A stretch of DNA of 24,541 nucleotides from a virus. The stretch is taken from the IMG/VR virus record IMGVR_UViG_3300037264_002341, positions 1 to 24,541 of that record, one strand, 5' to 3'. Positions 100 through 18,076 of this stretch are shown piece by piece. A model generated the notes under the pieces. It searched no databases and was not told the origin of the DNA. It worked only from the letters and a program-made list of their open reading frames with translations. Position 1 is the first letter of the stretch, and every line of letters begins with the position of its first letter. The position numbers were made by a program, and so were the translations under genes.

Positions 100-150
100 G
101 CGGAAGCAGGCCCAAAGTTGGGTGTCACAAACTTCCTGAAGGAGCAGGGC

Positions 151-3117
151 ATGAACATCTACGCGGACGGCACAACCCGCCTGTACGAGTTAAGTGAGAC
201 CACTGCCGGTCGCAAGGGAGTGCCATCCAGTTTCATTGCTCGTGCTCTCAAAGAAACCCCCATGGCCGTATACCTCTATGGTCCTGGGGTAGACTGTTGG
301 ATCCCCAAATACGCCATTAAGCTCGCGGACCCGAATCGTGTTCAAGAGGCAATCGAGGTTCCTGATGAACACCCTATGTTCGAGACAACCGCCGCCTCAA
401 GCAATGGACCACAACGCTACGCCAAAATCTCTCGCATTGGGCCCGCTCGACAGAGGATGATCAAAATCGTGTTCCCATATGATTGGAGGGATATTACCAA
501 CGTCAAGAAGATAAAGGGAGCACGATATCAGCATGAGGTAGACGAGAAGTTCTTTGTCTGTCCCATCTCCGTGGACGCGGTGACAGCTCTGGACCAACTC
601 CAGTTTGCTCTCTCTCCAAAGCTCTTGAAGCTCCTAAATGAATCTCAAACAAATGTAGATCAAATAGAAGCAGTGACCGTGCCGGGCCTACAGGGTAAAC
701 TGTATCCCTTCCAAGAGAAGGGAGTAGCATATACAGAGTTCAAAAACGGAATGGCTCTCCTCGCCGATGATATGGGCTTAGGCAAGACGGTTCAAGCTCT
801 CAGTTTTCTACAACTTCATCCGGAGCTACGACCCGCCGTAATTGTAGTTCCGGCCTCCCTCAAATTGAATTGGGCGAGGGAGGCCCGGAGATGGATGGAG
901 CGCCCCCGTGCCCGAGTTTTGTCAGGATCCAAAGCAAATCCCCGCTGGCTGAGAGGGGAAATTCTCATAATCAACTATGACATACTCGCAAACAAATATG
1001 AAAAGTACATCGACAAGAAAGATGGCAAAAAGAAGGAACGTGAGCAACCGTTCACCGGCTGGGTCGATTACATAAAAAATCTGAATCCAAAAGTGGTGAT
1101 ATTAGACGAATGCTTCCCTGCCGGCACTCTTATCTCCACCCCAAGGGGGGAAGTGCCCATAGAACAATTAAAAGAGGGGGACTCAATATACAACGCACTG
1201 GGGGTGGGAAACATCACGAAGAAGGGGGAAAGATTTACCCATCACTTAGTTCGCATAACCATGAATAATGGAAAACAAATTACTTGTACTCCAAACCATC
1301 CCTTTTTCACTACGGAGGGATGGTATCCAGCCGAAAACCTTGCAGAAAAATTTCTCTTGACTCCCGCAACGATTTTTAATATACTGGAACGCGACGATAT
1401 ATTAAGAGGAGATTCTGACCATGAAACTGCGTCGCGGGAACCGAATCTGCCAATGGTGCAAAAAACCATTCAAAGTCACCCCCAACACATCTCCCAAACA
1501 AAGATTCTGCGGGAAGTCCTGCTCAGCGAAGTGGAGAATGTCACAACCTTCAATAAGGAAGGCCGTATACACGAAGGAACGATCTCAGAAAATGTCCGTC
1601 GGTCTCCAGAAAGCCCACGCCAGAAATCCACAATGGGCAAAAGACAACTCCGAACGCATGACGAAGAACAACCCCACCACGAACTCCGAGGTGGTAAAAA
1701 AGATAAAGGAACATTGGAAGAAATTCGGGCATCCCTTACAAAAACAACAGCTCAAAGGCGGGAACGGCAGACCCCTCCCCGCTCCCCAAAGAATTTTACT
1801 GGCAGCTTTAGGATCAAAATGGAAGGCGGAATTTGTAATCCCCACTCGGATGCCTCGATCTTCTTGCTACCCGACTCATTACAAAGTAGATTTAGGACTA
1901 CCCCAAAGCAAGCTTTGGATCGAGTTAGACGGATGGATTCACGAACTTCCAGAAATAGAAGCACAAGACCGAAAGAAGGAACGATTCCTGCGAGAACGCG
2001 GGTGGAAAGGGTTGAGATTTTTGAATACAAGAGTTCTGCAAGACTTGGAGGGCGTCTTGTCTACAATCTCGAAGTCTCTGGACATCCCTCCTATTACGCT
2101 GAAGGAGTCTTAGTACACAACTGTCAATTCATCAAAAACAGCGCGGCTCATAGAACCAAAGCGGTCAAGAAGTTAGTCCAGGGGGTGCCTCATGTTCTTG
2201 GACTTACGGGGACAGCAATTGAGAACCGGCCTGCGGAGATTTACAACATTATCCGGATAGTCTGCCCCGCTCTGTTCCCAGACCGTTTCTCATTTCTGAG
2301 GCGATACTGTGCAGGACGGCATACTGGTTGGGGTTGGGACTTTTCTGGAGCCTCCAACACCAAAGAGCTTCATCAAAAGCTAATAAACTCTTGCATGCTA
2401 CGACGTAGAAAAGCGGACGTGCTGCCAGAATTACCAGCTAAAATCCGCTCCGTAGTGCCGATTGAACTGGATCTTACGGCAGCAAAACTCTACCGGAAGG
2501 CGGAGAGCGACTTTATTGGATGGGTGCGCGAGACGAGGGGGCATAAGGCGGCGAAAAGGGCATCAAACGCGGAGGCCCTAACTCGAATCGAGGGATTAAA
2601 GCAACTTGCTGTTAAAGCAAAGATGACTCAAATGGTCCGATGGATCAAAGACTTCCTAGAAGTGAAGGACAAACTCGTCATCTTTGCGGAACATAAGGAA
2701 GTAGTAAATCAGCTGATGGCGGACCTGACCTCCTACAACCCTGTAGTAGTCGCCGGAGGAGTCTCAAAAGAGAATCGGCAACGGGCAGTAGACCGCTTCC
2801 AGACCGAAGACAACGTGCGAGTGATCCTCGGCTCCAAATCTTTAGCGATGGGCTGGACCTTAACCGCCGCTGCGGACACCTGCTTCACGGAGCTTTGGTG
2901 GACTCCCGGACTTCATGTACAAGCCGAGGACCGGGTCCACCGAATAGGCCAGGAAGCAGACTCAGTCAATGCTTACTATTTGATCGCAACAGAAACCATC
3001 GAGGAGGAGATCGCAGCGTTGTTAGACAAGAAGCGGAAGGTGTTAGATCAAGTACTGGATGGGATAGAGACGGATGATTCCAGTCTGTTAACCGAGCTGA
3101 TGAATGCTTACTCCTGA
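151..3117 (+). CDS. SNF2-family DNA helicase/ATPase interrupted by an intein
   Basis: This is a superfamily 2 ATPase of the SNF2 type. The N-terminal segment around 463-600 resembles the HARP-like region of SMARCAL1-type proteins. Motif I (DDMGLGKT) is at 766-789. Motif II is split: LDE ends at 1110 and CQFIKN resumes at 2122 after a 337-residue intein. The C-terminal helicase lobe carries LGLTGTAIENRP near 2200 and the motif VI form QAEDRVHRIGQ near 2920-2950. The unspliced chain is 988 residues and the spliced protein is 651. The ATG at 151 is preferred over an in-frame TTG at 118 because AAGGAG sits seven bases upstream of it. SNF2 proteins of phages are thought to remodel forks or displace proteins from DNA. 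A sigma-like gene follows directly. Confidence 0.93.
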   Translation: MNIYADGTTRLYELSETTAGRKGVPSSFIARALKETPMAVYLYGPGVDCWIPKYAIKLADPNRVQEAIEVPDEHPMFETTAASSNGPQRYAKISRIGPARQRMIKIVFPYDWRDITNVKKIKGARYQHEVDEKFFVCPISVDAVTALDQLQFALSPKLLKLLNESQTNVDQIEAVTVPGLQGKLYPFQEKGVAYTEFKNGMALLADDMGLGKTVQALSFLQLHPELRPAVIVVPASLKLNWAREARRWMERPRARVLSGSKANPRWLRGEILIINYDILANKYEKYIDKKDGKKKEREQPFTGWVDYIKNLNPKVVILDECFPAGTLISTPRGEVPIEQLKEGDSIYNALGVGNITKKGERFTHHLVRITMNNGKQITCTPNHPFFTTEGWYPAENLAEKFLLTPATIFNILERDDILRGDSDHETASREPNLPMVQKTIQSHPQHISQTKILREVLLSEVENVTTFNKEGRIHEGTISENVRRSPESPRQKSTMGKRQLRTHDEEQPHHELRGGKKDKGTLEEIRASLTKTTAQRRERQTPPRSPKNFTGSFRIKMEGGICNPHSDASIFLLPDSLQSRFRTTPKQALDRVRRMDSRTSRNRSTRPKEGTIPARTRVERVEIFEYKSSARLGGRLVYNLEVSGHPSYYAEGVLVHNCQFIKNSAAHRTKAVKKLVQGVPHVLGLTGTAIENRPAEIYNIIRIVCPALFPDRFSFLRRYCAGRHTGWGWDFSGASNTKELHQKLINSCMLRRRKADVLPELPAKIRSVVPIELDLTAAKLYRKAESDFIGWVRETRGHKAAKRASNAEALTRIEGLKQLAVKAKMTQMVRWIKDFLEVKDKLVIFAEHKEVVNQLMADLTSYNPVVVAGGVSKENRQRAVDRFQTEDNVRVILGSKSLAMGWTLTAAADTCFTELWWTPGLHVQAEDRVHRIGQEADSVNAYYLIATETIEEEIAALLDKKRKVLDQVLDGIETDDSSLLTELMNAYS
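1111..2121 (+). mobile_element. Contiguous intein inserted in the SNF2 motif II (Walker B)
   Basis: The intein begins with Cys at 1111 (CFPAGTLISTPRGEVPIEQL, block A) and has block B TCTPNHPFF with the TxxH signature. It ends in block F (VYNLEVSGHPSYYAEGVL) and block G (VHN), with Cys+1 at 2122. The flanking exteins rejoin as LDE-CQFIKN, the SNF2 DExx box, so splicing restores an active-site motif. It is 337 residues long. Residues 1-103 are the splicing N part. The stretch from about 1421 to 2000 in this frame has no recognisable domain because a homing endonuclease is encoded there in the +1 frame. The last 40 residues are the splicing C part. All residues needed for standard cis-splicing (C1, TxxH, HN, C+1) are present. 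Confidence 0.95.
1421..2113 (+). CDS. Homing endonuclease nested out of frame inside the SNF2 intein (Vsr/DUF559-like)
   Basis: This 230-residue protein is read in the +1 frame relative to the surrounding intein. AGAGGAG at about 1405-1411 lies nine bases before its ATG. The N-terminus has a Cys4 zinc knuckle (CQWC and CGKSC). The middle is Lys/Asn-rich like the DNA-contact regions of phage homing endonucleases. The C-terminal domain resembles Vsr/DUF559 nucleases: YKVDLGL, then LWIELDGWIHE, an Asp-Arg helix and RGWKGLRFLN. Members of this EDxHD group cut DNA to spread their host intein. The helix that often carries a catalytic Glu reads PQRILL here, so activity is uncertain. The stop codon lies eight bases before the intein end, so its last ~38 codons overlap intein block F. 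Confidence 0.85.
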   Translation: MKLRRGNRICQWCKKPFKVTPNTSPKQRFCGKSCSAKWRMSQPSIRKAVYTKERSQKMSVGLQKAHARNPQWAKDNSERMTKNNPTTNSEVVKKIKEHWKKFGHPLQKQQLKGGNGRPLPAPQRILLAALGSKWKAEFVIPTRMPRSSCYPTHYKVDLGLPQSKLWIELDGWIHELPEIEAQDRKKERFLRERGWKGLRFLNTRVLQDLEGVLSTISKSLDIPPITLKES

Positions 3118-3130
3118 TAAGAGAGATGGT

Positions 3131-3601
3131 ATGAACAACATCGGTCTAATCAAGACTACTGCGTATCGCTTCCACAAGACCACGGGACTTCCCTACACAG
3201 ACCTCCTATCTGAGGCCGGCCTGGCCTACACCAAGGCGATTAAAGATTATGACCCGGAGCGAGGGGCATTAAGCACCCTCGCTGTCGTCTACATGACCAA
3301 TCATCTTTCCACTTATGTAACGGATGAGAAGTGGAGACCCAAGGAAACTCCGGTCATACAGGAGGTGGTGGATGAAACGGACGAGTTCCGCCGCAAGGAG
3401 TTCCTACAAGAATTAACCTTGCTCAGTTGGAGGACGCAGATTGCTTGTCGAATGGTTCTTTCCAATCAAGATGTTTACGCAGAGATGCCCCCCAAACTGG
3501 CTCGGGGGAAGCTACGGAGGGAATTGATCGCCTCCGGATGGTCTTGGAATGAGGTGTATACCACCTTTCGGGAGATAAGGGACTTCCTGAGAAAATTCTA
3601 A
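3131..3601 (+). CDS. Sigma-70-like small protein
   Basis: The 156-residue protein contains a segment resembling sigma-70 region 2: LLSEAGLAYTKAIKDYDPER, then LSTLAVVYMTNHL, the usual pattern of an amphipathic helix followed by a (Y/F)DPxRG turn. The C-terminal RGKLRRELIASGWSWNEVY could be a helix-turn-helix like region 4. It is shorter than a primary sigma factor and similar in size to minimal ECF or phage sigma-like proteins. The ATG at 3131 is preferred because AAGAGAG precedes it; an earlier in-frame ATG at 3104 lies inside the end of the helicase gene. It may direct RNA polymerase to phage promoters. Function is inferred from the region 2 resemblance only. Confidence 0.65.
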   Translation: MNNIGLIKTTAYRFHKTTGLPYTDLLSEAGLAYTKAIKDYDPERGALSTLAVVYMTNHLSTYVTDEKWRPKETPVIQEVVDETDEFRRKEFLQELTLLSWRTQIACRMVLSNQDVYAEMPPKLARGKLRRELIASGWSWNEVYTTFREIRDFLRKF

Positions 3602-3638
3602 GCCCATGGAGAGGGCTCCACAAGAGGAGGAACCCAAG

Positions 3639-3812
3639 ATGGAAGAGGTCCTGCTAACTGCAGAACAGTTGAGGGAGTTACTGAACAGGTATCGTTCCCT
3701 GCCCGAACCAAAGGACATGATTAAGAGGATCGAACGAATTTACAAAATTGAGAGACTAGAAAAGCTGCTAGCCCAGAAGGAACAGGAGGAGAAACAAAGG
3801 GCCTCTCCGTGA
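3639..3812 (+). CDS. Small charged helical protein, unknown
   Basis: A 57-residue protein rich in Glu, Lys, Leu and Arg, with a predicted continuous helix or short coiled coil (IERLEKLLAQKEQEEKQR). The ATG at 3639 has an excellent AAGAGGAGG eight bases upstream; a further in-frame ATG at 3606 lacks this. It resembles no family I can name. It sits just after the sigma-like gene. The 68 bases after it, up to 3880, hold no gene I can see other than the ribosome binding site of the next one. Confidence 0.6.
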   Translation: MEEVLLTAEQLRELLNRYRSLPEPKDMIKRIERIYKIERLEKLLAQKEQEEKQRASP

Positions 3813-3880
3813 TTCCTACGTTTCCGATAACCGCACAAGGCAGAGAAGGTGTCTGAGCCAAGAAAGCCAAGGGGAGGGGA

Positions 3881-4627
3881 ATGGAATCCTACTACATTGG
3901 TTGCTCCAAGAAGGGCTGTCGTCTTGCGTTCCCGCTCTGCAAAGCTCGCCAGAAGCATCAGAACTGCACGGTGGAGCAATGCAGAATAAGATCAACCTTC
4001 TCCAAGCAGATAGGAGGACGTTGTGTCCTAAAGCTAAAAGGTTGTCACTCTGGTTGTCGAGACTACAGAAACTTTCTAAGAGACAACCCAGAACGGGAGG
4101 AGCCCCTGGTGCGATCTTTAGTGCGGGGGAAGAAACCTGAACCTCTCCTAGCACGGGGATCGGGACGATTGGAAAGGGGCTCCAATCGCTTGATCCGGGG
4201 AGAGTCCAAATTGATGAGAGGAGATGGACCTATGTTAGTCTGTAAACTGACCGAGGATTGGGAACTACACACGGACCATGAAGGGCTCCCATTCCTGACC
4301 CATCCAGACTACTCAGGGCGAGTGGCCTTCCAGACCGCCTTATCTGAAACCGAAGACCACGAGGAATGGCTAGACATCGTCAAGAGGAGACGGGACCGCT
4401 ACAGGGAAAGCCTCGGCGAAAATCACAAGAAGTACAAAGCAGCAGACCAGTTCATCTGGTGGTGGGATCGAATCGGGAAGGTCGGCGGCTCCTCCGAAGA
4501 CGACCCCGTTGTCCTTTCTAGGAGGGCTTCAAACCCTTCTAGAAATGACGCAAAGCTCGTTAGGGAGGCCGGAGGTCGCCTAGAGCGAGGCAAGCCGTCT
4601 CCGTCGATGTTAAAGCGGGGAGGTTAG
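3881..4627 (+). CDS. Cys-rich protein with LxRG heptad repeats, unknown
   Basis: 248 residues, preceded immediately by a G/A-rich binding site. The first 60 residues hold nine Cys in C-x4-C, CTVEQC and GCHSGC arrangements, suggesting bound zinc or an Fe-S cluster. Then LxRG occurs at residues 80, 90, 97, 104 and 111; the last four are spaced exactly seven residues, encoded by 21-base imperfect repeats (4148-4231). RLERG and LKRGG return at the C-terminus. Residues 118-200 form a soluble domain rich in Trp, Glu and His. ATG 4232 (residue 118) follows AGGAG by eight bases, so a shorter product starting there is possible. No family recognised. Two perfect or near-perfect RNA hairpins lie inside the gene. 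Confidence 0.7.
   Translation: MESYYIGCSKKGCRLAFPLCKARQKHQNCTVEQCRIRSTFSKQIGGRCVLKLKGCHSGCRDYRNFLRDNPEREEPLVRSLVRGKKPEPLLARGSGRLERGSNRLIRGESKLMRGDGPMLVCKLTEDWELHTDHEGLPFLTHPDYSGRVAFQTALSETEDHEEWLDIVKRRRDRYRESLGENHKKYKAADQFIWWWDRIGKVGGSSEDDPVVLSRRASNPSRNDAKLVREAGGRLERGKPSPSMLKRGG
4148..4231 (+). repeat. Four 21-base imperfect tandem repeats encoding LxRG heptads
   Basis: Four 21-base units starting at 4148, 4169, 4190 and 4211 each encode Leu-x-Arg-Gly plus three variable residues. Protein spacing is conserved better than the DNA, with different Leu and Arg codons used, which points to old repeats held by selection on the protein. Confidence 0.75.
4166..4188 (+). repeat. Perfect 8-bp inverted repeat inside the LxRG gene
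   Basis: CGATTGGA at 4166-4173 and TCCAATCG at 4181-4188 pair perfectly around a 7-base loop. The hairpin lies within the LxRG tandem repeats, inside coding sequence. Confidence 0.6.
4515..4545 (+). repeat. 12-bp inverted repeat inside the LxRG gene
   Basis: TTTCTAGGAGGG (4515-4526) pairs with CCCTTCTAGAAA (4534-4545) around a 7-base loop; the single mismatch is a G-U pair in RNA. It lies in coding sequence about 80 bases before the stop codon. The arm contains GGAGGG, so folding could hide a Shine-Dalgarno-like sequence. There is no U-run, so it is not a classical terminator. Confidence 0.65.
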
Positions 4628-10145: not shown

Positions 10146-11459
10146 ATGCCGAAGGAGGTCCTGAAACTTAACGGCGTTAGGTTGCTTAGCTTGGAACCGC
10201 GCGACATAGTCACCGCCATCCTCCATACATTCCCGGACATTCATTACTGGAGCCCGGATGGGCTCAGGCAGCTCTGGAAGGCCGCATTCGATGTAGCTTT
10301 GGAGTTTGTAAAAACCCAAATTAAGAATGAAAGGGGGTCGAAACGGAGTGCATTAACTCGCTTCCGTAAAAGAGCGGAATGGAAGTTGTGGAGCGTGCGC
10401 CGGAGTGGGTCAAGCATGCTTACTCGGGTCTACAACGAGATGCTTGCTAATGAAGGTCACGGGTTACTGCGGGGCTTCGGCTTCGCCAACAAATTGGGAC
10501 AACCGATTTTGGGGAATGCTGAAGTCCAACCGTGCATACTGTTTCAACCGTATCAGGACTCAGAAACAATCTCTAACCAAGAGGAGGAAGTCATGTCAGA
10601 GCTGGAGTTCACGAAGAAGGAACTGAAGGACGCCCTTGAGGACGTCAACGAGACCCTGGACCTCGGCAAGACCTCCATGTCCACCAAGGGGGGTGAAGAG
10701 GAGCTGCTGGAGCGCCTGACCAAGGCCGCTCTCCAGAAGGATGGCGAGGGCAACTTCTTCATCACCGACAAGGACGAGGTCAACAAGAAGACCCGCAAGA
10801 TCATCGACGCCATCCGCGAGAACGCGGAGGAGGACGAGGAGAAGCCCAAGAAGAAGGCCAAAGCCAAGGCCGAGGCCGAGGACGAGGAGGAGGAGAAGCC
10901 CAAGAAGAAGGCCAAGGACGAGGACGACGAGGAGAAGCCCAAGGCCAAGACCAAGGTCAAGGACGAGGATGAGGAGAAGCCCAAGAAGAAGGCCAAGGAC
11001 GAGGACGAGGACGAGGACGGCGAGAAGTCCCTGGCCGACCAGGTCGCGGAGTGCTCCAAGCTGAAGCTGCTCAAGCAGATGGTCGAGGACAACAGTGAGT
11101 TCAAGAAGCTCCGCAAAAAGCTGGACGACTACAAGTTGCTGGAGGGCTTCCGCGAGCTGAAGAACGACATGTACGAGGCCCTGGGCGTCGAGCCCCCCAA
11201 GAAGAAGGCCCCCAAGAAGAAGGAGGAGACCGGCCCGCGCTACACCCGGCTCCACGCCGTCGCCGATGCCCTGAAGGAGGGCAAGACCACGAACCGGGAG
11301 AAGCTGGTCCAGCGGTCTTCTGATCTGTTCGCAGAGCATGGTGGCCACGACAACCTGCGGGAGCAGAAGGCCGACTTCGAGCGGGCCTCCAAGCTCCTGA
11401 CCGCACTCGGCCTGGCCAAGGACAACGGCAAGGAGTTCGAGTACACTCCTGAGGGCTAG
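10146..11459 (+). CDS. Long form of the charged protein: unknown N-terminal domain in frame with the Lys/Glu-rich protein
   Basis: One frame of 437 codons runs from ATG 10146 (GGGAG seven bases upstream) to TAG 11459. The first 149 codons encode a soluble unknown domain (VRLLSLEPRDIVTAILHTF, then a Trp- and Arg-containing helical region) with ordinary mixed codon use. From codon 150, exactly at an internal ATG with AGGAGG five bases upstream (10593), codon use switches almost completely to G- or C-ending codons. This looks like two genes joined in frame by loss of a stop, or one gene with two starts. Whether the full-length fusion is made cannot be decided from sequence. Confidence 0.55.
   Translation: MPKEVLKLNGVRLLSLEPRDIVTAILHTFPDIHYWSPDGLRQLWKAAFDVALEFVKTQIKNERGSKRSALTRFRKRAEWKLWSVRRSGSSMLTRVYNEMLANEGHGLLRGFGFANKLGQPILGNAEVQPCILFQPYQDSETISNQEEEVMSELEFTKKELKDALEDVNETLDLGKTSMSTKGGEEELLERLTKAALQKDGEGNFFITDKDEVNKKTRKIIDAIRENAEEDEEKPKKKAKAKAEAEDEEEEKPKKKAKDEDDEEKPKAKTKVKDEDEEKPKKKAKDEDEDEDGEKSLADQVAECSKLKLLKQMVEDNSEFKKLRKKLDDYKLLEGFRELKNDMYEALGVEPPKKKAPKKKEETGPRYTRLHAVADALKEGKTTNREKLVQRSSDLFAEHGGHDNLREQKADFERASKLLTALGLAKDNGKEFEYTPEG
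10593..11459 (+). CDS. Highly charged Lys/Glu-rich protein, codon-optimised (short form)
   Basis: 288 residues from an internal ATG with a very strong ribosome binding site (GAGGAGGAAG). The N-terminal 80 residues are mixed alpha/beta-like (SELEFTKKELKDALEDVNE). Residues about 82-150 are a low-complexity alternation of acidic and basic blocks with four EEKPKxKxK copies. After a helical region and a second basic patch (PPKKKAPKKK), the C-terminal 70 residues (RYTRLHAVADALKEGKTTN to the end) look like a folded helical domain. Such charge-patterned proteins include histone-H1-like DNA-binding proteins, but no family is recognised. Extreme G/C-ending codon use, its own candidate promoter and the strong hairpin afterwards suggest high expression. 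Confidence 0.75.
   Translation: MSELEFTKKELKDALEDVNETLDLGKTSMSTKGGEEELLERLTKAALQKDGEGNFFITDKDEVNKKTRKIIDAIRENAEEDEEKPKKKAKAKAEAEDEEEEKPKKKAKDEDDEEKPKAKTKVKDEDEEKPKKKAKDEDEDEDGEKSLADQVAECSKLKLLKQMVEDNSEFKKLRKKLDDYKLLEGFRELKNDMYEALGVEPPKKKAPKKKEETGPRYTRLHAVADALKEGKTTNREKLVQRSSDLFAEHGGHDNLREQKADFERASKLLTALGLAKDNGKEFEYTPEG
10836..10997 (+). repeat. Four 27-base repeats encoding EEKP(K/A)KKAK-type units
   Basis: Copies at 10836-10862, 10890-10916, 10929-10955 and 10971-10997 each encode Glu-Glu-Lys-Pro-Lys followed by four mostly Lys/Ala residues. They are separated by acidic spacers of 27, 12 and 15 bases, all multiples of three. The third copy is divergent (KAKTK). Unequal spacing and near-identical DNA suggest recent slippage-driven expansion. 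Confidence 0.8.
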
Positions 11460-11600: not shown

Positions 11601-12506
11601 ATGATGTTGTTTCTTGAACAACACTTCCTCGAACCAGAACGCCGGAAGCAAGCCGAATTTGCTGTGGTAGGAGCGGGTCTTATGGGCGCTACCATAGCAG
11701 AGATGCTACGATCTTGCGGATTGACTGGTGTTCTCCTGGACGATCCTTCCCCCTCGAATGAACCTGGAACCCGGGCTTGCGGAGGGCTTATCAAGCCTTC
11801 TCCCCTCTCAGGTCTCTCCTCAGAACAGACGAACAAATCCCTTGCTATACTTGACCGCTTCTTCGGCCTGCATCCGGAGACTCTGATCATTCGTCCGAGC
11901 GGGAATCTGATAAAGGCGAATGTTCAAGCAGTAAATATGGATCACATCTTCGCAGTCCCCCGAACCCCGGCCTTGGTGCACCGCGTCCACTCCGGAGTGC
12001 TACAATACCTCGATCAAAAAGACCGTATCGTGGAGTTAGAAAGCCCCTTGATCGTGGTGGCCGCAGGACCGGGAACACTAAACCTCTTCCCTCAGTTGAG
12101 AAGTTGTCTAGTAGTCAAACGGGGCTTCTCATTCCATATGAAAGGACGAGTCGCTCAGGGCTTCGTGAAGTTCTGGGCGCCCTACAAACAGGTTACGGTA
12201 CACAACACCCGCTTCGAGGGGGAGAAGATTGTATGGGCGGGTGAGGGGTCTGCCTTACGGCTTGAAAACTGGTATAGGGGGCGGATTCGGGAGGGACTAG
12301 CTCGTGTCCGGAAGGAGCTGCCTGAAAAGGAATATCCTCTCATCCGCACGGTGACGGGCCTCCGTCTGTTCCACCATCACCGTAAGCCTTGTTTCGTAGA
12401 GAAAATGGATAAAGGATTATATGTAGTAACCGCCGCTGGTAAGTTCGGATTGATCTCCGCCGGTTACGCTGCGATGGAGGTGGCCAAACATGAAAGACTT
12501 GCTTGA
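11601..12506 (+). CDS. FAD-dependent oxidoreductase (DAO/glycine-oxidase-like)
   Basis: 301 residues. The dinucleotide-binding motif VVGAGLMGATIAEML (GxGxxG at 24-29) followed by an acidic residue ending strand 2 (LLDD) marks an FAD Rossmann fold. The C-terminal RTVTGLRLF and the GLYVVTAAGKFGLISAGYAA segment match the end of D-amino-acid/glycine oxidase family proteins, where it contacts FAD. It is shorter than typical DAO enzymes (about 360-380), with a reduced substrate domain. It opens the metabolic cassette and overlaps the aldo/keto reductase gene by 17 bases. Substrate unknown; amines or amino-acid adducts are likely for the family. Confidence 0.8.
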   Translation: MMLFLEQHFLEPERRKQAEFAVVGAGLMGATIAEMLRSCGLTGVLLDDPSPSNEPGTRACGGLIKPSPLSGLSSEQTNKSLAILDRFFGLHPETLIIRPSGNLIKANVQAVNMDHIFAVPRTPALVHRVHSGVLQYLDQKDRIVELESPLIVVAAGPGTLNLFPQLRSCLVVKRGFSFHMKGRVAQGFVKFWAPYKQVTVHNTRFEGEKIVWAGEGSALRLENWYRGRIREGLARVRKELPEKEYPLIRTVTGLRLFHHHRKPCFVEKMDKGLYVVTAAGKFGLISAGYAAMEVAKHERLA

Positions 12507-13485
12507 GCGACTTCGGGATTACAAGAGTCTAGTGGATGCGAAGCGGGACCCAGAGATGTATGATTTCCTTTGGGGGGTCACTTGCCAAATTGGTTGTCGC
12601 CTCGGGGTGGATGAGTTTGTTCAGGAGTACGGCTGGCCGGGGCTTAAAGCGGTAGCCGAGCACCCCTTCCATCATGTCTATGTTAGCGATCCAGTCAAGA
12701 TCGAGCCTTACCGACCCCAACTGGCTATCGGCACTTACAGATGGAAATATGACCCAAAACCAATTTTGCTTGCCATTAAAAAAGGAGTGGATTTTATTGA
12801 CACTGCTCCTACCTATGGTTACGGCAAAGTGGAAGAGCGTCTGAAGGACGTGCTTACAGGAAAGAAGTTGGAGGTGGTAATAGGTTCCAAATTCGCTAGG
12901 AACAGGATGTCCTTCAACAACGTAGTCAGTTCCTGTAGGCGGACGGCCAAACGCTTCACGACTCTTCCGATCCACCTACAGCTCCATTGGCCGAATATAA
13001 AGTATCCTCTTCCTGAGGCACTACGGGCAATGCGATACTTGTTCAAGAATGGGGAAGTTGCTAGTCTCGGCGTCTGCAACATGTCGGTACCATTACTCCG
13101 TGTCGCCCGATCTTTGGCGCCTATCTCGACTGTTCAAGGACCGCTGAGCGTTTTCGTGCCTCAAGCCAAGGACTTTCTGTTGCCCTATTGCGAGAAAGAG
13201 GGGTTGACCTTCTTGGCTTACGGTCCTCTAGGTCAGGAGCCAAAAAAGCTCCTCCAGGAACGGGATCCAAAAGGCTTCTTCAAGAGGAAGGCCCGCGAAC
13301 TGAATTGCGAAGTCTCCCAAGTCCTCCTCGCGTGGGTCTGGGCTCAGGGGGCGGTCCCGATGCCCGCAACGAACAAGGTGGAACATATGAGAAGCAATCT
13401 TGACGCTCAGCAGGTGGACATGCCCCCCGACATCGTTCAGGAAATAAATGACTTCATGGAGAAAGCGGGGGCGGTGAGAAGTTAG
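12490..13485 (+). CDS. Aldo/keto reductase
   Basis: 331 residues, with GGAGGTGG six bases before the ATG. The (beta/alpha)8 NADPH-dependent reductase fold is shown by LAIGTYRW, FIDTAPTYGYGKVEERL and SLGVCNMS. The catalytic tetrad is complete: Asp104, Tyr109, Lys134 (IGSKF) and His166 (LQLHWPN). The C-terminal VLLAWVWAQGAVPMPATNKVEHM corresponds to the cofactor 2'-phosphate region. There is an extra N-terminal segment of about 70 residues (with WGVTCQIGCRLG) not usual in the family. It would reduce a carbonyl, perhaps one made by the FAD enzyme upstream. Such a gene is unusual in a phage replication region. Confidence 0.9.
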   Translation: MKDLLERLRDYKSLVDAKRDPEMYDFLWGVTCQIGCRLGVDEFVQEYGWPGLKAVAEHPFHHVYVSDPVKIEPYRPQLAIGTYRWKYDPKPILLAIKKGVDFIDTAPTYGYGKVEERLKDVLTGKKLEVVIGSKFARNRMSFNNVVSSCRRTAKRFTTLPIHLQLHWPNIKYPLPEALRAMRYLFKNGEVASLGVCNMSVPLLRVARSLAPISTVQGPLSVFVPQAKDFLLPYCEKEGLTFLAYGPLGQEPKKLLQERDPKGFFKRKARELNCEVSQVLLAWVWAQGAVPMPATNKVEHMRSNLDAQQVDMPPDIVQEINDFMEKAGAVRS

Positions 13486-14577
13486 ATGTCCTCCATATAC
13501 ATACCAAAAAGCCGGACGGGATTGAGTGTTCGAGGAGATTCATTGTATTGCCCCCTTGCCTTCACTCTTGATCCATATTGGTGGTGCGAGCCGGATTGTC
13601 TCCATTGTTATCTGCGTCGTCTCAACAAACTTTGGGGCACGGAACAGCGGGGGTTGAATTTAGAAAAGCTGGACCATCGCCTGTCTATGGGCCCTCTCAG
13701 GAAAAAACCAAAAACACCCCTAGCCAATTGTTTGGCAAACCGCAACACGATACGAGTGGGTAACAAAGCGGACCCCTTCCAACCGATAGAGCGGCAGCAA
13801 CGGTTGGCTACCCATTCCCTTCGACTTCTGTACAAATACCGATGGTCGTTTGTCATCCAGACCCGGTTTCCGGGGACGGTTCTGGACTTGGCCTCGACAA
13901 TCTTGGAGAAGTGCGTCCCACTCAATCTCGCTACTGTTATGCCCGTCATCTCTCCGGGGATGGAGCGAGATTGGGAACTGTTTGAGCAGAAGCGCACGGA
14001 GCCCATCAAAGAGCGTCTGAGGTCTATCAAAGACCTCATTAAGATAGGCGTGAATGTAGGAGTCAATGGAGAGCCCTTTATTCCGGGCTTCCATGTCCTT
14101 GGAGATTTCGAGGACACTTTGAAAAGGCTCAAAGCAATAGGAGTGAGTCGTTACAACACTTACAACTTACACTTCACCGAATTCGTAGCCAAGCGGATCC
14201 ACGATTTGCCAGGAGTAGATATAGAAAGGATATGGTATGAAAATCAAGACAAGCGTTGGCGCATTACCCTTACTAGGCTAATCGAGCTTGCAAAGAAACA
14301 CAACTTCATTCTCGGCTGTCCTGATTTCGTCAACTCCGGTCCCCGCCATCTGGAAGAGGCTAACACCTGTTGTGGAGTGGACGTTCCACGACCCACGACA
14401 TTCAATACGCACTATTTCAAACGTCTTGCTCAAAAGGGCTATGTAGCAGAGAGGATAGTCAAGTCCACTTGGGATGGAGTGGGAGACCTTGACCGGGGTC
14501 GAAAGATCATTCGGGGAGCTAAGACAGATTTTTACACCTTAAAAGACGCCGAGGTGAAGGTCAAGGAGAGTGGCTAA
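13486..14577 (+). CDS. Radical SAM enzyme, spore-photoproduct-lyase-like
   Basis: 363 residues. The 4Fe-4S site Cys34-x3-Cys38-x2-Cys41 lies in WWCEPDCLHCY. Downstream, RVGNKADPFQPIERQQRL followed by a TxxFPGT strand and a VMPVISPGMERDWE segment matches the SPL-like branch of radical SAM proteins, whose founding member acts on thymine lesions in DNA. A CCGVDVPRP segment near the C-terminus gives extra Cys. It begins directly after the stop of the reductase gene and shares one base with the next gene, so the cassette is translated as a unit. Substrate is unknown; a DNA base is possible by analogy with SPL. Confidence 0.85.
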   Translation: MSSIYIPKSRTGLSVRGDSLYCPLAFTLDPYWWCEPDCLHCYLRRLNKLWGTEQRGLNLEKLDHRLSMGPLRKKPKTPLANCLANRNTIRVGNKADPFQPIERQQRLATHSLRLLYKYRWSFVIQTRFPGTVLDLASTILEKCVPLNLATVMPVISPGMERDWELFEQKRTEPIKERLRSIKDLIKIGVNVGVNGEPFIPGFHVLGDFEDTLKRLKAIGVSRYNTYNLHFTEFVAKRIHDLPGVDIERIWYENQDKRWRITLTRLIELAKKHNFILGCPDFVNSGPRHLEEANTCCGVDVPRPTTFNTHYFKRLAQKGYVAERIVKSTWDGVGDLDRGRKIIRGAKTDFYTLKDAEVKVKESG

Positions 14578-15455
14578 TGAGTCTCCGAAGGAACACTCCT
14601 GTAGAGGAATATCCACTCGCCGTCCGCGTGTCCAACGTCCCGGTTAGGATAAGGGGGCCGGTAGATATTTTGGTCAAGCGAGAGGACCTTTGCTGCGATC
14701 CTCCGGGGCCTCCCTTCGCTAAGGTCCGGGGTCTCTTAATCCGCCTTCAGAATTTGAAAAGGCAAGGTCTTCACACTATTGGCTATATGGAAAACTCAAT
14801 CTCTATGAATGGCTGGGGAGTGGCCTGGACCTGTGCTGAATTAGGTATGCAAGCGGTCATCTATGACCCCCAATACAACTGCTATTCAGAGGTTCTGGAC
14901 TACCACCGCAAGCTTTGGAAGGAGCTTGGAGCTTTGATCCGGACAAATCCGGGGGGTGTATCCAAAGTGGATTTCGCCGTCTGCCGAGACACCTTTGAGA
15001 AGGAGTTCGGTCCAAATGCGACTCTGCTCTATCCCGGTCTGTCGTTCATCGAGACGGTGATCGCAACTGCAGAGGAAGTTGAGAGGACGATAAAACGTCT
15101 GAAGAAACGGGCGAAGACGGTTGTGGTCAACGTTGGAAGCGGGATTATTGCTGCTGGGATCTGGCGAGGTTTTGAGAAACATTGTCCGGATGTAATCATA
15201 CACGGCATCATGGGACACTCGGGAGACTTAACCCGGAAGATGAATGACATCGAGAAGAATTCCGGACTCCTCCATCAAAAGCAACTCCGATCCAAGTTTG
15301 TACTCCATGATCCCGGTTGGAAATACACCGAACCAAGCGAAGTTCCAAGTCCCTTCCCCTGTAATCAATTCTATGATTTGAAGGCGTGGGAGTGGCTTGT
15401 TCAAAATTTTCATAGGCTCGATGAACCGATCCTCTTCTGGAACATTGGGGCATAG
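14577..15455 (+). CDS. PLP-dependent enzyme, fold type II (ACC-deaminase/Trp-synthase-beta-like)
   Basis: 292 residues. The segment DILVKREDLCCDPPGPPFAK resembles the N-terminal part of fold-type II enzymes, with Lys49 in FAKVRG the likely Schiff-base lysine. SMNGWGVAWTCAELGMQAVI matches the substrate/cofactor loop and helix, and NVGSGIIAAGIWRGF replaces the glycine-rich phosphate-binding loop. It is slightly short for the fold. Relatives carry out beta-elimination, deamination or replacement on amino acids. It lies between two radical SAM genes, sharing one base with the first (TAATGA). Substrate unknown. Confidence 0.75.
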   Translation: MSLRRNTPVEEYPLAVRVSNVPVRIRGPVDILVKREDLCCDPPGPPFAKVRGLLIRLQNLKRQGLHTIGYMENSISMNGWGVAWTCAELGMQAVIYDPQYNCYSEVLDYHRKLWKELGALIRTNPGGVSKVDFAVCRDTFEKEFGPNATLLYPGLSFIETVIATAEEVERTIKRLKKRAKTVVVNVGSGIIAAGIWRGFEKHCPDVIIHGIMGHSGDLTRKMNDIEKNSGLLHQKQLRSKFVLHDPGWKYTEPSEVPSPFPCNQFYDLKAWEWLVQNFHRLDEPILFWNIGA

Positions 15456-15457
15456 TC

Positions 15458-15994
15458 ATGGACTATTTTGAGCTAAGACGCCTCGTCAGCCGGATCGTTC
15501 CCCGTATGACCCAACTTCAAGTGTCCAAACGGAAGGTGGACGCGGTGAAGGAGAAGGGGCGCAAGAAGAACTATCATCAATTCAACCTGCGCGATGGGGA
15601 ATGGCGGAAGCAGGAACGGCTTCTGAATACCGAGGCCATCAACTCCTTCCTGGAAATCTCGGTGAGAGCGGCAGCCTGCCCGATGCCCTTCAATATGGAC
15701 ATTTGGGACGGGCTTCTCTGTGTTGCGGAAGGGCAACGGGTCCAGACCTCTGATGGAAAAGTTCCTATCGAGAAAGTCAAGGCTTGTGATGTTGTCTGGA
15801 CTTTCAACGAGGAGGAACAGCGCCGCCAACTGGCTCGGGTAACTCAAATCTCTAACACCATTCGAAAGAACCTGGTTGAAGTTGAGACCGAAGAGGGGAC
15901 CATCCGGTTAACTGAAGACCACCGAGTGCTTACCCAACGGGGTTGGATTCCTGCGGGGCAACTTACGGAAGAAGACCTGATGTATGTCTGGTAA
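15458..15994 (+). CDS. Radical SAM enzyme N-extein fused to split intein N half
   Basis: 178 residues. Residues 1-87 are the N-extein of a second radical SAM protein, ending WDGLL. Cys88 (nt 15719) begins an intein: block A CVAEGQRVQTSDGKVPIEKV and block B RLTEDHRVLT with the TxxH signature, then a stop at 15992 soon after GWIPAGQL. The intein N half is 91 residues. The C-extein is encoded 0.8 kb downstream in the same frame (16796-18076), where IntC ends HN followed by Cys. This half lacks the Fe-S cysteines and cannot be an active enzyme alone. The full 473-residue protein needs trans-splicing. The stop overlaps the endonuclease gene by 11 bases. Confidence 0.93.
   Translation: MDYFELRRLVSRIVPRMTQLQVSKRKVDAVKEKGRKKNYHQFNLRDGEWRKQERLLNTEAINSFLEISVRAAACPMPFNMDIWDGLLCVAEGQRVQTSDGKVPIEKVKACDVVWTFNEEEQRRQLARVTQISNTIRKNLVEVETEEGTIRLTEDHRVLTQRGWIPAGQLTEEDLMYVW
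15719..15991 (+). mobile_element. Split intein, N-terminal half (IntN)
   Basis: 91 residues from Cys1 to the residue before the stop codon, with blocks A and B. Together with the 40-residue IntC this gives a 131-residue mini-intein, the size of known natural split inteins. Confidence 0.92.
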
Positions 15995-16814
15995 GCTCTG
16001 TAAATGCGGTTGTGGAATTCCCATCCCTTTCGGCTCAACCTGGGCAAAGGGACACAACCGTCGGGGGGAGAAGCACTCGAAGGCCGCTCTCCAGAAGATG
16101 CGAGAAGCCCGACTGGGAAACACCCCTTGGAATAAAGGGAAGCCCAGAACTGAAGAAGAGAAGGAAGCGATGCGGCGGGGCATCTCTACAGAAGAGCGGG
16201 AGAGGCGTTCCAAAAGGACAACGAGAGGTTGGAAGGAAGGTCGGTACGATTTCATGAATGGCAAGACTAACCCGGCCTGCCGTCCGGAGGTCGCTACCAA
16301 AATAGGGGAAGCCAACAAAGGCCGGATTATCTCGAAAGCTACCAGACACAAGTTGAGTAAATCCCGCCTGGGGAAACCCGGCCAGGTCGTCTCGGAGAGG
16401 GTAAAGAAGCTCCACTCCAAACGGATGAAGAAGGACAATCCCATGTATCACAAGGACGTTCTTCAAAATCATCCGGTCCTCCGAGGGGGAAGGTACTACA
16501 TTTCCATCGGAGAGAACAAGGTGGCCGGGCTTCTGACCGAGATGGGGATAGCCTTTGAGAGGCAAAAGCTCCTCCGCAAACAGGTCGGCTACTACGTTGC
16601 GGACTTCTTCTTAACCGGCCACGACGCAATAATCGAGTTTGACGGGCACTATTCTCATGTAGAGAACGCGGAGAAGGACCGTCAGCGAGACTGCTATCTC
16701 TTGAGAAGATACGGCTACCGAACTCTGCGCTTGGTGTCCATGGATCTGAACAATAGGAACAGAGAAGACCTTATCCAGAAGATACGGGAGTTTCTATGGA
16801 ACTCAAACCAGTAA
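15984..16814 (+). CDS. Free-standing homing endonuclease between the split intein halves
   Basis: 276 residues. The N-terminus has a Cys motif (CKCGCG) and several NUMOD3-like segments (GHNRRGEKHSKAALQKMREA, LGNTPWNKGKPRTEEEK, GRIISKATRHKLSKSRLG), which are DNA-binding repeats of phage homing endonucleases. The C-terminal nuclease is Vsr/DUF559-like (EDxHD group): GENKVAGLLTEMGI, YYVADFFL, AIIEFDGHYSH, then KDRQRDCYLLRRYGYRTLRL. The Glu, Asp and His-Asp residues expected for the group are all present. It should cut an intein-free allele of the radical SAM gene. Its start overlaps IntN by 11 bases and its end overlaps IntC by 19, so all three cistrons are coupled. It is in the +1 frame relative to the halves. 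Confidence 0.88.
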   Translation: MSGKLCKCGCGIPIPFGSTWAKGHNRRGEKHSKAALQKMREARLGNTPWNKGKPRTEEEKEAMRRGISTEERERRSKRTTRGWKEGRYDFMNGKTNPACRPEVATKIGEANKGRIISKATRHKLSKSRLGKPGQVVSERVKKLHSKRMKKDNPMYHKDVLQNHPVLRGGRYYISIGENKVAGLLTEMGIAFERQKLLRKQVGYYVADFFLTGHDAIIEFDGHYSHVENAEKDRQRDCYLLRRYGYRTLRLVSMDLNNRNREDLIQKIREFLWNSNQ

Positions 16815-16915
16815 AGGTGAAACGGGTCCGCAAGATTCCAGGGGAGTATCGAGTGTACGATATCACCGTGGACCGCAACTCCAACTTCTTCGCGGAGGGG
16901 CACCTAGTTCACAAC
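16796..16915 (+). mobile_element. Split intein, C-terminal half (IntC)
   Basis: 40 residues with blocks F and G, ending in His-Asn just before Cys+1 at 16916. It provides its own start codon and ribosome binding site. Confidence 0.92.
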
Positions 16916-18076
16916 TGTCCCTTTGCTTGTATCTATTGCTACGCGAATTCCTTTAGGGCCAGTCTTTACACGGCCTTCTTCGACAACTCGAAGACCATGG
17001 GATTCCGTCATTGCAATCCCACCTACTACAAGAAGGAGATGGACAAGATGTTGAAATTCCGCTCTCTCCCATTCTCGGAGAAGCGGACGCTAACAGGCAT
17101 TAACAAAGCCTTCGCCCTTGATATTCCCGTCCGCATGGGTATCCGCTTCGAGGACTTCCTGCGAAATGAGCAGAGGGCCGGAGTCAGTCTGGAGATGTTG
17201 AACTACCTAGCTGATATTAGTTATCCGATCATGATCAACACGAAGTCCTACATTCCAGGACAGGACGCCTACGTGAAAGCTCTCTCTCGAAACGAGGCCG
17301 GAGCGGCTATTCACGTCACTGTCATCTCCTGCAATGAGGAGATACTACGAAAGTTGGAGCCTGGGGCACCATCCTACAAACGGCGGCTGGAGACGATGAG
17401 GAATCTCTGCTCTGCAGGGGTGCGGGTAGTCGCTCGGATCGAGCCCTATCTGTTCCTTCTCACTGATGATCCGGACGACCTGAAGCAATATATGGAAGAG
17501 GTGTATGGAACCGGGGTAAGGCATATCACATTCGACACCTACTCTTACACGGCCCAAAATCCAGGGATTCGTCAGGCCTTTATCAATGTGGGATATGACT
17601 ATGACCGTCTTTTCCTCGCCGGATGCGATAGCCAACCACTTGGAAGCCTTCTTTTGGCTAAATTTATGGACCTGTTTAGAGCTAGGGGATTTTTCTGCTC
17701 TACATTCGATATGGGAAATGTTCCTAGTAACGACCAAGCCATCTGCTGCGAAGTAGGAGACTGGTTCAAGGGGGGCTTCAACTACGGCTGCACCGTTATG
17801 GCGGCTCGGTTCATCCGAGACCAGTCCAAGAAGCTCGGTCCCAATATGGGAGTCTGCTGGTCGGACTTTGTATATTGGGTCGTTAAAAGGGGAGGCTTCC
17901 TCACCCCCGAACTACAACGGATGGTCCACGAACTCTGGAACCTCGGGGGAAATGTTGCTTACAGCCCTCGTTGGGCTCAGGGGCTAGTTCCTTGCGGAAT
18001 GGACGACGACGGCCTCATCTGGATCCATGAACCGAGCCGCGATCATCGGCAAACTCTCTTGGAGGAATTGATATGA
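16796..18076 (+). CDS. Split intein C half fused to radical SAM C-extein
   Basis: 426 residues, with GGGAG five bases before the ATG. Residues 1-40 are IntC: block F YRVYDITVDRNSNFFAEG and block G HLVHN. Residue 41 is both the +1 Cys for splicing and the first Cys of the radical SAM cluster CPFACIYCYA (Cys41, 45, 48). The rest is SPL-like: VRMGIRFEDFL, a YPIMINTKSYIPG strand, HVTVISCNEEILRKLEP with GAPSYKRRLETM, and VVARIEPYLFLL. A late CC motif (AICCEVGDWF) may hold a further cluster. Without splicing it would carry the cluster but lack 87 N-terminal residues. It shares ATGA with the next gene. Confidence 0.93.
   Translation: MELKPVKVKRVRKIPGEYRVYDITVDRNSNFFAEGHLVHNCPFACIYCYANSFRASLYTAFFDNSKTMGFRHCNPTYYKKEMDKMLKFRSLPFSEKRTLTGINKAFALDIPVRMGIRFEDFLRNEQRAGVSLEMLNYLADISYPIMINTKSYIPGQDAYVKALSRNEAGAAIHVTVISCNEEILRKLEPGAPSYKRRLETMRNLCSAGVRVVARIEPYLFLLTDDPDDLKQYMEEVYGTGVRHITFDTYSYTAQNPGIRQAFINVGYDYDRLFLAGCDSQPLGSLLLAKFMDLFRARGFFCSTFDMGNVPSNDQAICCEVGDWFKGGFNYGCTVMAARFIRDQSKKLGPNMGVCWSDFVYWVVKRGGFLTPELQRMVHELWNLGGNVAYSPRWAQGLVPCGMDDDGLIWIHEPSRDHRQTLLEELI

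Follow-up and report, generated by a model that had tools for sequence, protein, structure and literature searches.

The DNA analysed here (the window) is the whole 24,541-base IMG/VR record IMGVR_UViG_3300037264_002341, virus DNA in which an SNF2/SF2 helicase gene holds an intein, and this intein in turn holds a second open reading frame (ORF) in the +1 frame. Very probably we are dealing with a cis-splicing intein in which an overlapping gene, and not an in-frame domain, provides the homing endonuclease. The features on which this reading is built, namely the two frames, the avoidance of stop codons, the purifying selection on the endonuclease, its co-inheritance with the splicing domain, the empty site found in a relative and the horizontal spread, are computed results.

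In the mechanism we propose, a ribosome starting at the SNF2 start codon would read the whole gene in one frame and yield a precursor, in which the intein would be a normal splicing domain in two halves, with a linker of ~200 residues, for the most part disordered, running between them; by excising itself, the intein would restore the helicase Walker B motif (DE/C, the slash marking the insertion point). A second ribosome would start on the same mRNA at ATG 1421, from a Shine-Dalgarno (SD) sequence embedded in intein codons, and produce a +1-frame protein made of a zinc ribbon and a Vsr-like (EDxHD-type) endonuclease. The target of this enzyme would be the Walker B codons of helicase alleles that lack the intein; once cut, these alleles would be repaired by copying in the intein together with its nested gene. 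Selection on the linker frame would then amount to little else than 'no stop codons'. Only over the last ~29 endonuclease codons would it go further, where a folded strand of the C-intein would be encoded as well.

Two reading frames within one intein

The host gene (118..3117; all features given here are on the + strand) encodes 999 aa in frame 1, and matches Pfam SNF2-rel_dom (E 2.5e-27), Helicase_C (E 2.4e-12) and a PHROG annotated as DNA helicase. The intein, identified by profiles and AlphaFold at 1111..2121 (SNF2 protein residues 332-668), is contiguous and of class-1 type, and splits Walker B as LDE/CQF. It is matched by Pfam Intein_splicing (E 6.8e-10) and, at its two ends, by TIGR01445 (E 1.4e-8) and TIGR01443 (E 6.6e-6), and its splicing residues are intact: Cys1, the TPNH of block B (TxxH), the C-terminal His-Asn and the +1 Cys. 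The same residues recur in a census of 78 relatives, where Cys1 is present in all 78, the terminal pair is HN in 71 and SN in 7, the +1 residue is C in 74 and S in 4, and TxxH is found, within the stretch searched, in 65.

AlphaFold modelling separates this region into parts of very different quality. The predicted local distance difference test (pLDDT) score is 96-98 for the splicing domain, contributed by both ends of the intein, and 41-50 for the linker. The N-terminal part of the splicing domain, with blocks A and B and the TPNH motif, occupies 1111..1380 (residues 1-90, pLDDT 90-98), and is followed by the host-frame linker at 1381..1992 (approximately residues 91-294), a mostly low-confidence stretch (pLDDT 41-50 over residues 151-285) which is the shadow of the endonuclease gene and has, in relatives, a ratio of nonsynonymous to synonymous differences (pN/pS) of 1.47. 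The splicing-domain model has the horseshoe fold, the gp41-1 intein (6qaz, E 8e-7) being the top solved structure in Foldseek. The splicing domain is thus predicted to be confidently folded and the linker disordered.

The nested gene (1421..2113) encodes 230 aa in the +1 frame: a Cys4 zinc-ribbon-like N-terminus, with weak L24e/YacG-like profile matches, a SERMxKNNP linker and a DUF559/Vsr-like core of the EDxHD type (Pfam DUF559, E 1.4e-11). Its AlphaFold model has a mean pLDDT of 90.9; the best Foldseek matches are I-Bth0305I (3r3p; probability 0.99, E 0.037), NGO0050 and Vsr (1vsr), and a profile search retrieves 3hrl (E 2.8e-12) and 3r3p (E 0.002). Across 64 sequences the catalytic residues D157, D170, H174 and D183 are invariant, and E168 nearly so. 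An SD-like AGAGGAG (1405..1411) lies 9 nt before the ATG, with a duplex energy of -8.4 kcal/mol. An earlier note, made from the letters of the window alone, had described a complete intein holding a 230-codon +1 endonuclease frame with its own AGAGGAG and ATG 1421, and a host frame open across the whole intein; ORFs and Pfam/TIGR profiles bear out the former, and the latter agrees with the SNF2 ORF, uninterrupted from 118 to 3117.

Relatives among phages

Single-sequence scans of IMG/VR with either the endonuclease or the whole SNF2 protein gave no matches. In a tblastn search of GenBank phages, the nested protein was found in 42 phages, mostly under genes annotated as 'helicase' or of unknown function. 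In 7 out of 7 loci opened, from Vibrio, Pseudomonas and Corynebacterium phages, the endonuclease lies in the +1 frame inside an intact helicase coding sequence (CDS), with the intein at DE/C; this CDS is the sole annotation there, the nested gene being unannotated in all seven.

Two sets of loci were collected from profile scans. The first, obtained from the endonuclease only, comprises 84 unique loci at which both halves of the intein are present; this count includes the seven opened GenBank phages and the window itself. The second comprises 106 unique paired loci, obtained with zero endonuclease information from short N and C splicing-domain alignments, chosen because an all-intein alignment was too diverse for scanning; its search pattern, DECFPAG, favours the DE-type insertion site. 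The nested frame is +1 in 84/84 loci of the first set, with the host frame open in 83/84; in the second set, 102/106 are both +1 and open, the remainder being two fractured radical-SAM genes, one mini-intein of 140 residues and one mispairing. An in-frame version of this endonuclease was found at none of the loci of either set. United after approximate, sequence-based de-duplication, the sets provide ~161 distinct phage or prophage loci with +1 nesting, which is the outcome of the search for phage inteins with an overlapping +1 Vsr/DUF559 frame that the earlier note had proposed. These counts also dispose of two weaknesses envisaged there: stops are not frequent in either frame of the homologues, and a single in-frame domain broken by a sequencing error is excluded because ~160 independent records, sequenced GenBank phages among them, agree.

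The exteins match, among others, SF2 and SNF2 helicases, clamp-loader subunits and a helicase-methylase fusion in Pfam, and insertion follows Asp-Glu in 74/78 of the first set. Distances between splicing domains and distances between endonucleases are correlated (r 0.72, equalled in 0/999 permutations), and the two parts have therefore been inherited together. The fixed +1 phase would most simply be explained by one ancestral event.

How the nested frame is entered can be judged from its 5' end. In the window, a TAA in the endonuclease frame at 1403-1405, five codons upstream of ATG 1421, bounds the nested ORF, and therefore this frame cannot be entered from far upstream. Among relatives, a start codon precedes the zinc ribbon in 82/82 intact copies and is ATG in 76 of them (93%), the best of several candidates having been chosen; at the 35 loci with a single possible start, the median SD energy is -6.6 kcal/mol, against -1.9 kcal/mol at ATGs of other frames (P 1e-5). 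Host codons for Asp-Glu-Val (GACGAGGTT) supply the SD in several of the Vibrio phages. From such features we infer that the nested gene is initiated internally and independently, at ATG 1421. A programmed +1 ribosomal frameshift out of the helicase/N-intein frame, which would give a helicase-N-intein-endonuclease fusion, would fit a nested frame that is +1 in every locus and +2 in none, as a fixed shift would require, as well as the loci where a clear SD is missing. We nevertheless regard it as improbable: in 50/82 loci a stop in the endonuclease frame lies at most 5 codons before the first possible start, leaving little room for shifting, the starts and enriched SDs just described speak for initiation, and the constant phase is explained by common descent, as the correlation above indicates, and by the dual-coded 3' end of the gene.

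Constraint in the overlap

Given the endonuclease protein, a host-frame stop can arise only at an endonuclease codon ending in T before AA, AG or GA. The exact probability that the host frame of the window is free of stops is 3.4e-7 under phage codon usage, and 6e-5 under the codon usage of the endonuclease itself, which already contains the avoidance. The judgement of the earlier note that this openness is probably selected thus holds, its figure of 1.5e-5 being a crude but reasonable estimate. In the 17,401 codons of the first set there is a single host-frame stop, versus 1541 stops in the third frame, and the stop-creating T at NNT before AA/AG/GA is used once in 1205 sites (1 versus 1204 NNC; 0.08%), versus 64% T elsewhere; in the second set it is used in 0/1180, versus 53% at other C/T-ending codons. 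As a control, endonuclease relatives outside inteins contain 158 stops in the equivalent frame over 2759 codons, and have T at 45.5% of such sites. The gene at L093:3962-4576, a close relative of the nested endonuclease that stands free just ahead of an SF2 helicase lacking the intein (VDESHH), has 19 stops in the host-equivalent frame.

These figures bear on the possibility that the intein is split and works in trans, its C-half being separately initiated and the open host frame incidental. The same genome does hold a split locus of this kind with the same endonuclease family (15458-18076), and two relatives, L248 and L257, are fractured radical-SAM genes. Trans-splicing, however, does not need an open host frame, and host-frame stops have been purged from tens of thousands of codons in ~160 loci; at the one locus of the window that is truly split, the endonuclease, homologous to the nested one, has accumulated nine stops in the host-equivalent frame over 268 codons. 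A split intein is accordingly very improbable, and splicing in cis remains our favoured reading.

Codon substitution rates, which the earlier note had suggested comparing in both frames, differ sharply. By simple Nei-Gojobori counts, in which the overlap is ignored, the ratio of nonsynonymous to synonymous rates (omega) in the overlap of close pairs is 0.03-0.25 for the endonuclease frame and 0.8-3.1 for the host frame, changes being concentrated at host position 1, that is, endonuclease position 3; in the N-intein outside the overlap, omega is 0.04-0.25. On these counts the endonuclease frame is under purifying selection, and the linker is therefore kept readable, not conserved. Conservation within the linker, such as a near-invariant LQ, was considered as a sign of linker function, and appears to be a shadow of the endonuclease codons.

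The picture changes over the last ~29 endonuclease codons, from GWxVLRF to the stop, the DNA of which also encodes the intein strand VDSVEI ahead of block F. In relatives, the synonymous differences (pS) of the endonuclease fall here from 0.46 to 0.22, and the nonsynonymous ones (pN) of the host from 0.18 to 0.09. In the window, folded parts of both proteins are encoded by 2000..2113, read as GWKGLRFLN... in the endonuclease and as VERVEIFEYKS... in the intein strand; both frames of this segment are constrained in relatives. As judged from these comparisons, constraint on both frames is limited to this short stretch, the rest of the host linker being neutral apart from stops.

Homing and decay

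Vibrio phage PS17B.1 has the same helicase as the relative L005, at 92% protein identity, without the intein, and the exact join GATGAG/TGT represents the empty site for L005. Between L005 and L009, synonymous divergence (dS) is 0.07-0.21 in the intein versus 1.42 in the exteins, and between L069 and L080 it is 0.20-0.39 versus 1.53: the inteins are far more alike than the exteins, as recent homing predicts. Together, the exact empty site and this contrast in similarity point, indirectly, to active homing.

In L062 and L085 the endonuclease is broken while the host frame of the intein is intact; L130 is a mini-intein, and L157, L249 and L256 have lost most of the endonuclease, retaining the dual-coded 3' end. 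The broken endonucleases and the mini-intein are in keeping with the gain and decay that such elements usually go through. The existence of such broken or deleted copies could also suggest that intein and endonuclease are both decayed in the window, with two frames open by chance. This we hold to be extremely improbable, since the probability of an open host frame is minute in the window alone, and since in relatives the endonuclease and the splicing domain are under purifying selection, with catalytic residues intact.

Some observations weigh against a cis-splicing intein with an overlapping endonuclease gene. Splicing, translation from ATG 1421 and cleavage are events that we infer from sequence. 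The evidence on selection and the empty site is drawn from relatives of the window phage, because no close relative of it was found. The Foldseek E-value of the endonuclease is weak (0.037), though accompanied by a probability of 0.99 and by the better profile values for 3r3p and 3hrl. No SD is recognisable upstream of the nested start in some loci. Finally, L041, a clamp-loader-like gene, carries a host-frame stop (TAG at L041:4114, intein residue 198), the only one found in a nested locus; it may be an error, or may lie on the way to a split intein.

Other genes of the window

The split locus at 15458-18076 is a fractured radical-SAM gene (Rv2578c/PA0069-like), where a NUMOD3-DUF559 endonuclease separates split-intein halves that share one frame; the locus serves as a control from the same genome. 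ORF and profile matches define a radical-SAM N-part plus N-intein, terminated by a stop (15458..15994, Cys1 at 15719), and a C-intein, extending to 16915, plus radical-SAM C-part (16796..18076); the endonuclease (15984..16814; Pfam DUF559 E 1.5e-9, NUMOD3 E 1.9e-7) overlaps both by a few bases. The insertion point of the intein precedes the first Cys in the CxxxCxxC cluster motif (CPFACIYC). Used as an IMG/VR query, this endonuclease retrieved one weak relative. The fractured inteins of L248 and L257 (~3501-4550) are found in the same gene family, a few residues further on (before CYANxFRASLY), and in this third layout the endonuclease and the C-intein appear to form one in-frame fusion.

The radical-SAM gene closes a series of enzyme genes (11601-18076) that is not usual in a phage; it includes an FAD oxidoreductase (DAO), an aldo/keto reductase, a 363-aa protein and a pyridoxal phosphate-dependent (PALP) enzyme, and possibly forms a nucleotide or DNA modification pathway. 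Upstream of it, 10146-11459 encodes a protein of 437 aa that matches nothing in Pfam and contains a long repeat rich in Lys, Glu and Asp (EEKPKKKAKDEDE). Scans for Rfam elements and tRNAs found neither in the window, and the repeats present in it have no bearing on the nested gene.

Discussion

Intein endonucleases have been described either as domains in frame with the intein or as genes that stand free between the halves of a split one. With canonical full-length inteins, such as PI-SceI, the present one shares the Hint splicing domain, an endonuclease in the same place between N and C parts, mobility and insertion in conserved active-site motifs. In canonical inteins, however, the endonuclease is an in-frame domain, whereas in every nested locus, that of the window included, it is a separate, overlapping +1 gene, and the in-frame linker is predicted to be disordered and neutral apart from stops. 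Fractured genes with split inteins, reportedly described by Dassa et al. in 2009 as carrying a free-standing Vsr-related homing endonuclease between the halves, likewise tie such an enzyme to an intein in phage genes; there the host is broken in two around the endonuclease, while here SNF2 is contiguous. The comparison, already made in the earlier note, is apt, because a gene of the fractured type sits in the same window. I-Bth0305I, the EDxHD homing endonuclease of PDB entry 3r3p, is the best fold match of the nested protein, but is annotated as a mobile intron protein and is not nested in an intein.

The closest parallel comes from mycobacteriophage methylases, in which the ShiLan domain and the Pacc40 insertion contain out-of-frame HNH endonucleases (Arsenault, Gosselin and Gogarten 2025, PMC11855218). 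The ShiLan case shares with ours an out-of-frame endonuclease within an insertion, an open host frame, a homing distribution and a disordered host-frame product; it differs in having no splicing domain, being predicted to stay in the methylase, and in an HNH gene located in the third frame, with a GTG start and no detectable ribosome-binding site (PMC11855218). Here, by contrast, we find an intein, a Vsr/EDxHD-type nuclease, always +1, an SD and an ATG, and ~160 loci. Pacc40 gp60 of the ShiLan paper, which bears an out-of-frame nuclease, is helicase plus methylase, as is the fusion gene at L026:3061-6537, which bears a nested intein.

The earlier note had considered the arrangement undescribed. 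For inteins this stands in the literature searched, where no paper was found on an intein with an overlapping out-of-frame endonuclease, a preprint (10.1101/2025.01.02.630785) possibly containing examples; it does not stand for out-of-frame endonucleases at large, since the HNH genes of non-splicing phage insertions were published in 2025. The preprint, whose title refers to the 'non-canonical architecture' of actinophage inteins, is cited for overlapping frames in PMC11855218. The arrangement may thus not be categorically new, and some such inteins may have been noticed before.

Taken over all loci, these inteins probably represent a third, widespread architecture of mobile inteins, in which contiguous splicing inteins contain an independently initiated, overlapping endonuclease gene, the +1 phase being locked by a short dual-coded segment. 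A large family of phage inteins would then hide its endonuclease in another frame, where gene callers miss it, and the dose of endonuclease would be decoupled from that of the host protein. As an example of long overlapping genes the family is a clean one, with one frame neutral, the other constrained, and a short fold that is truly dual-coded; its ~160 candidate splicing domains tolerating long disordered linkers are useful for split-intein engineering. Split inteins may plausibly have arisen by way of such a layout, and, if our reading is true, it could mark a transition linking free-standing endonucleases, inteins and fractured split-intein genes.

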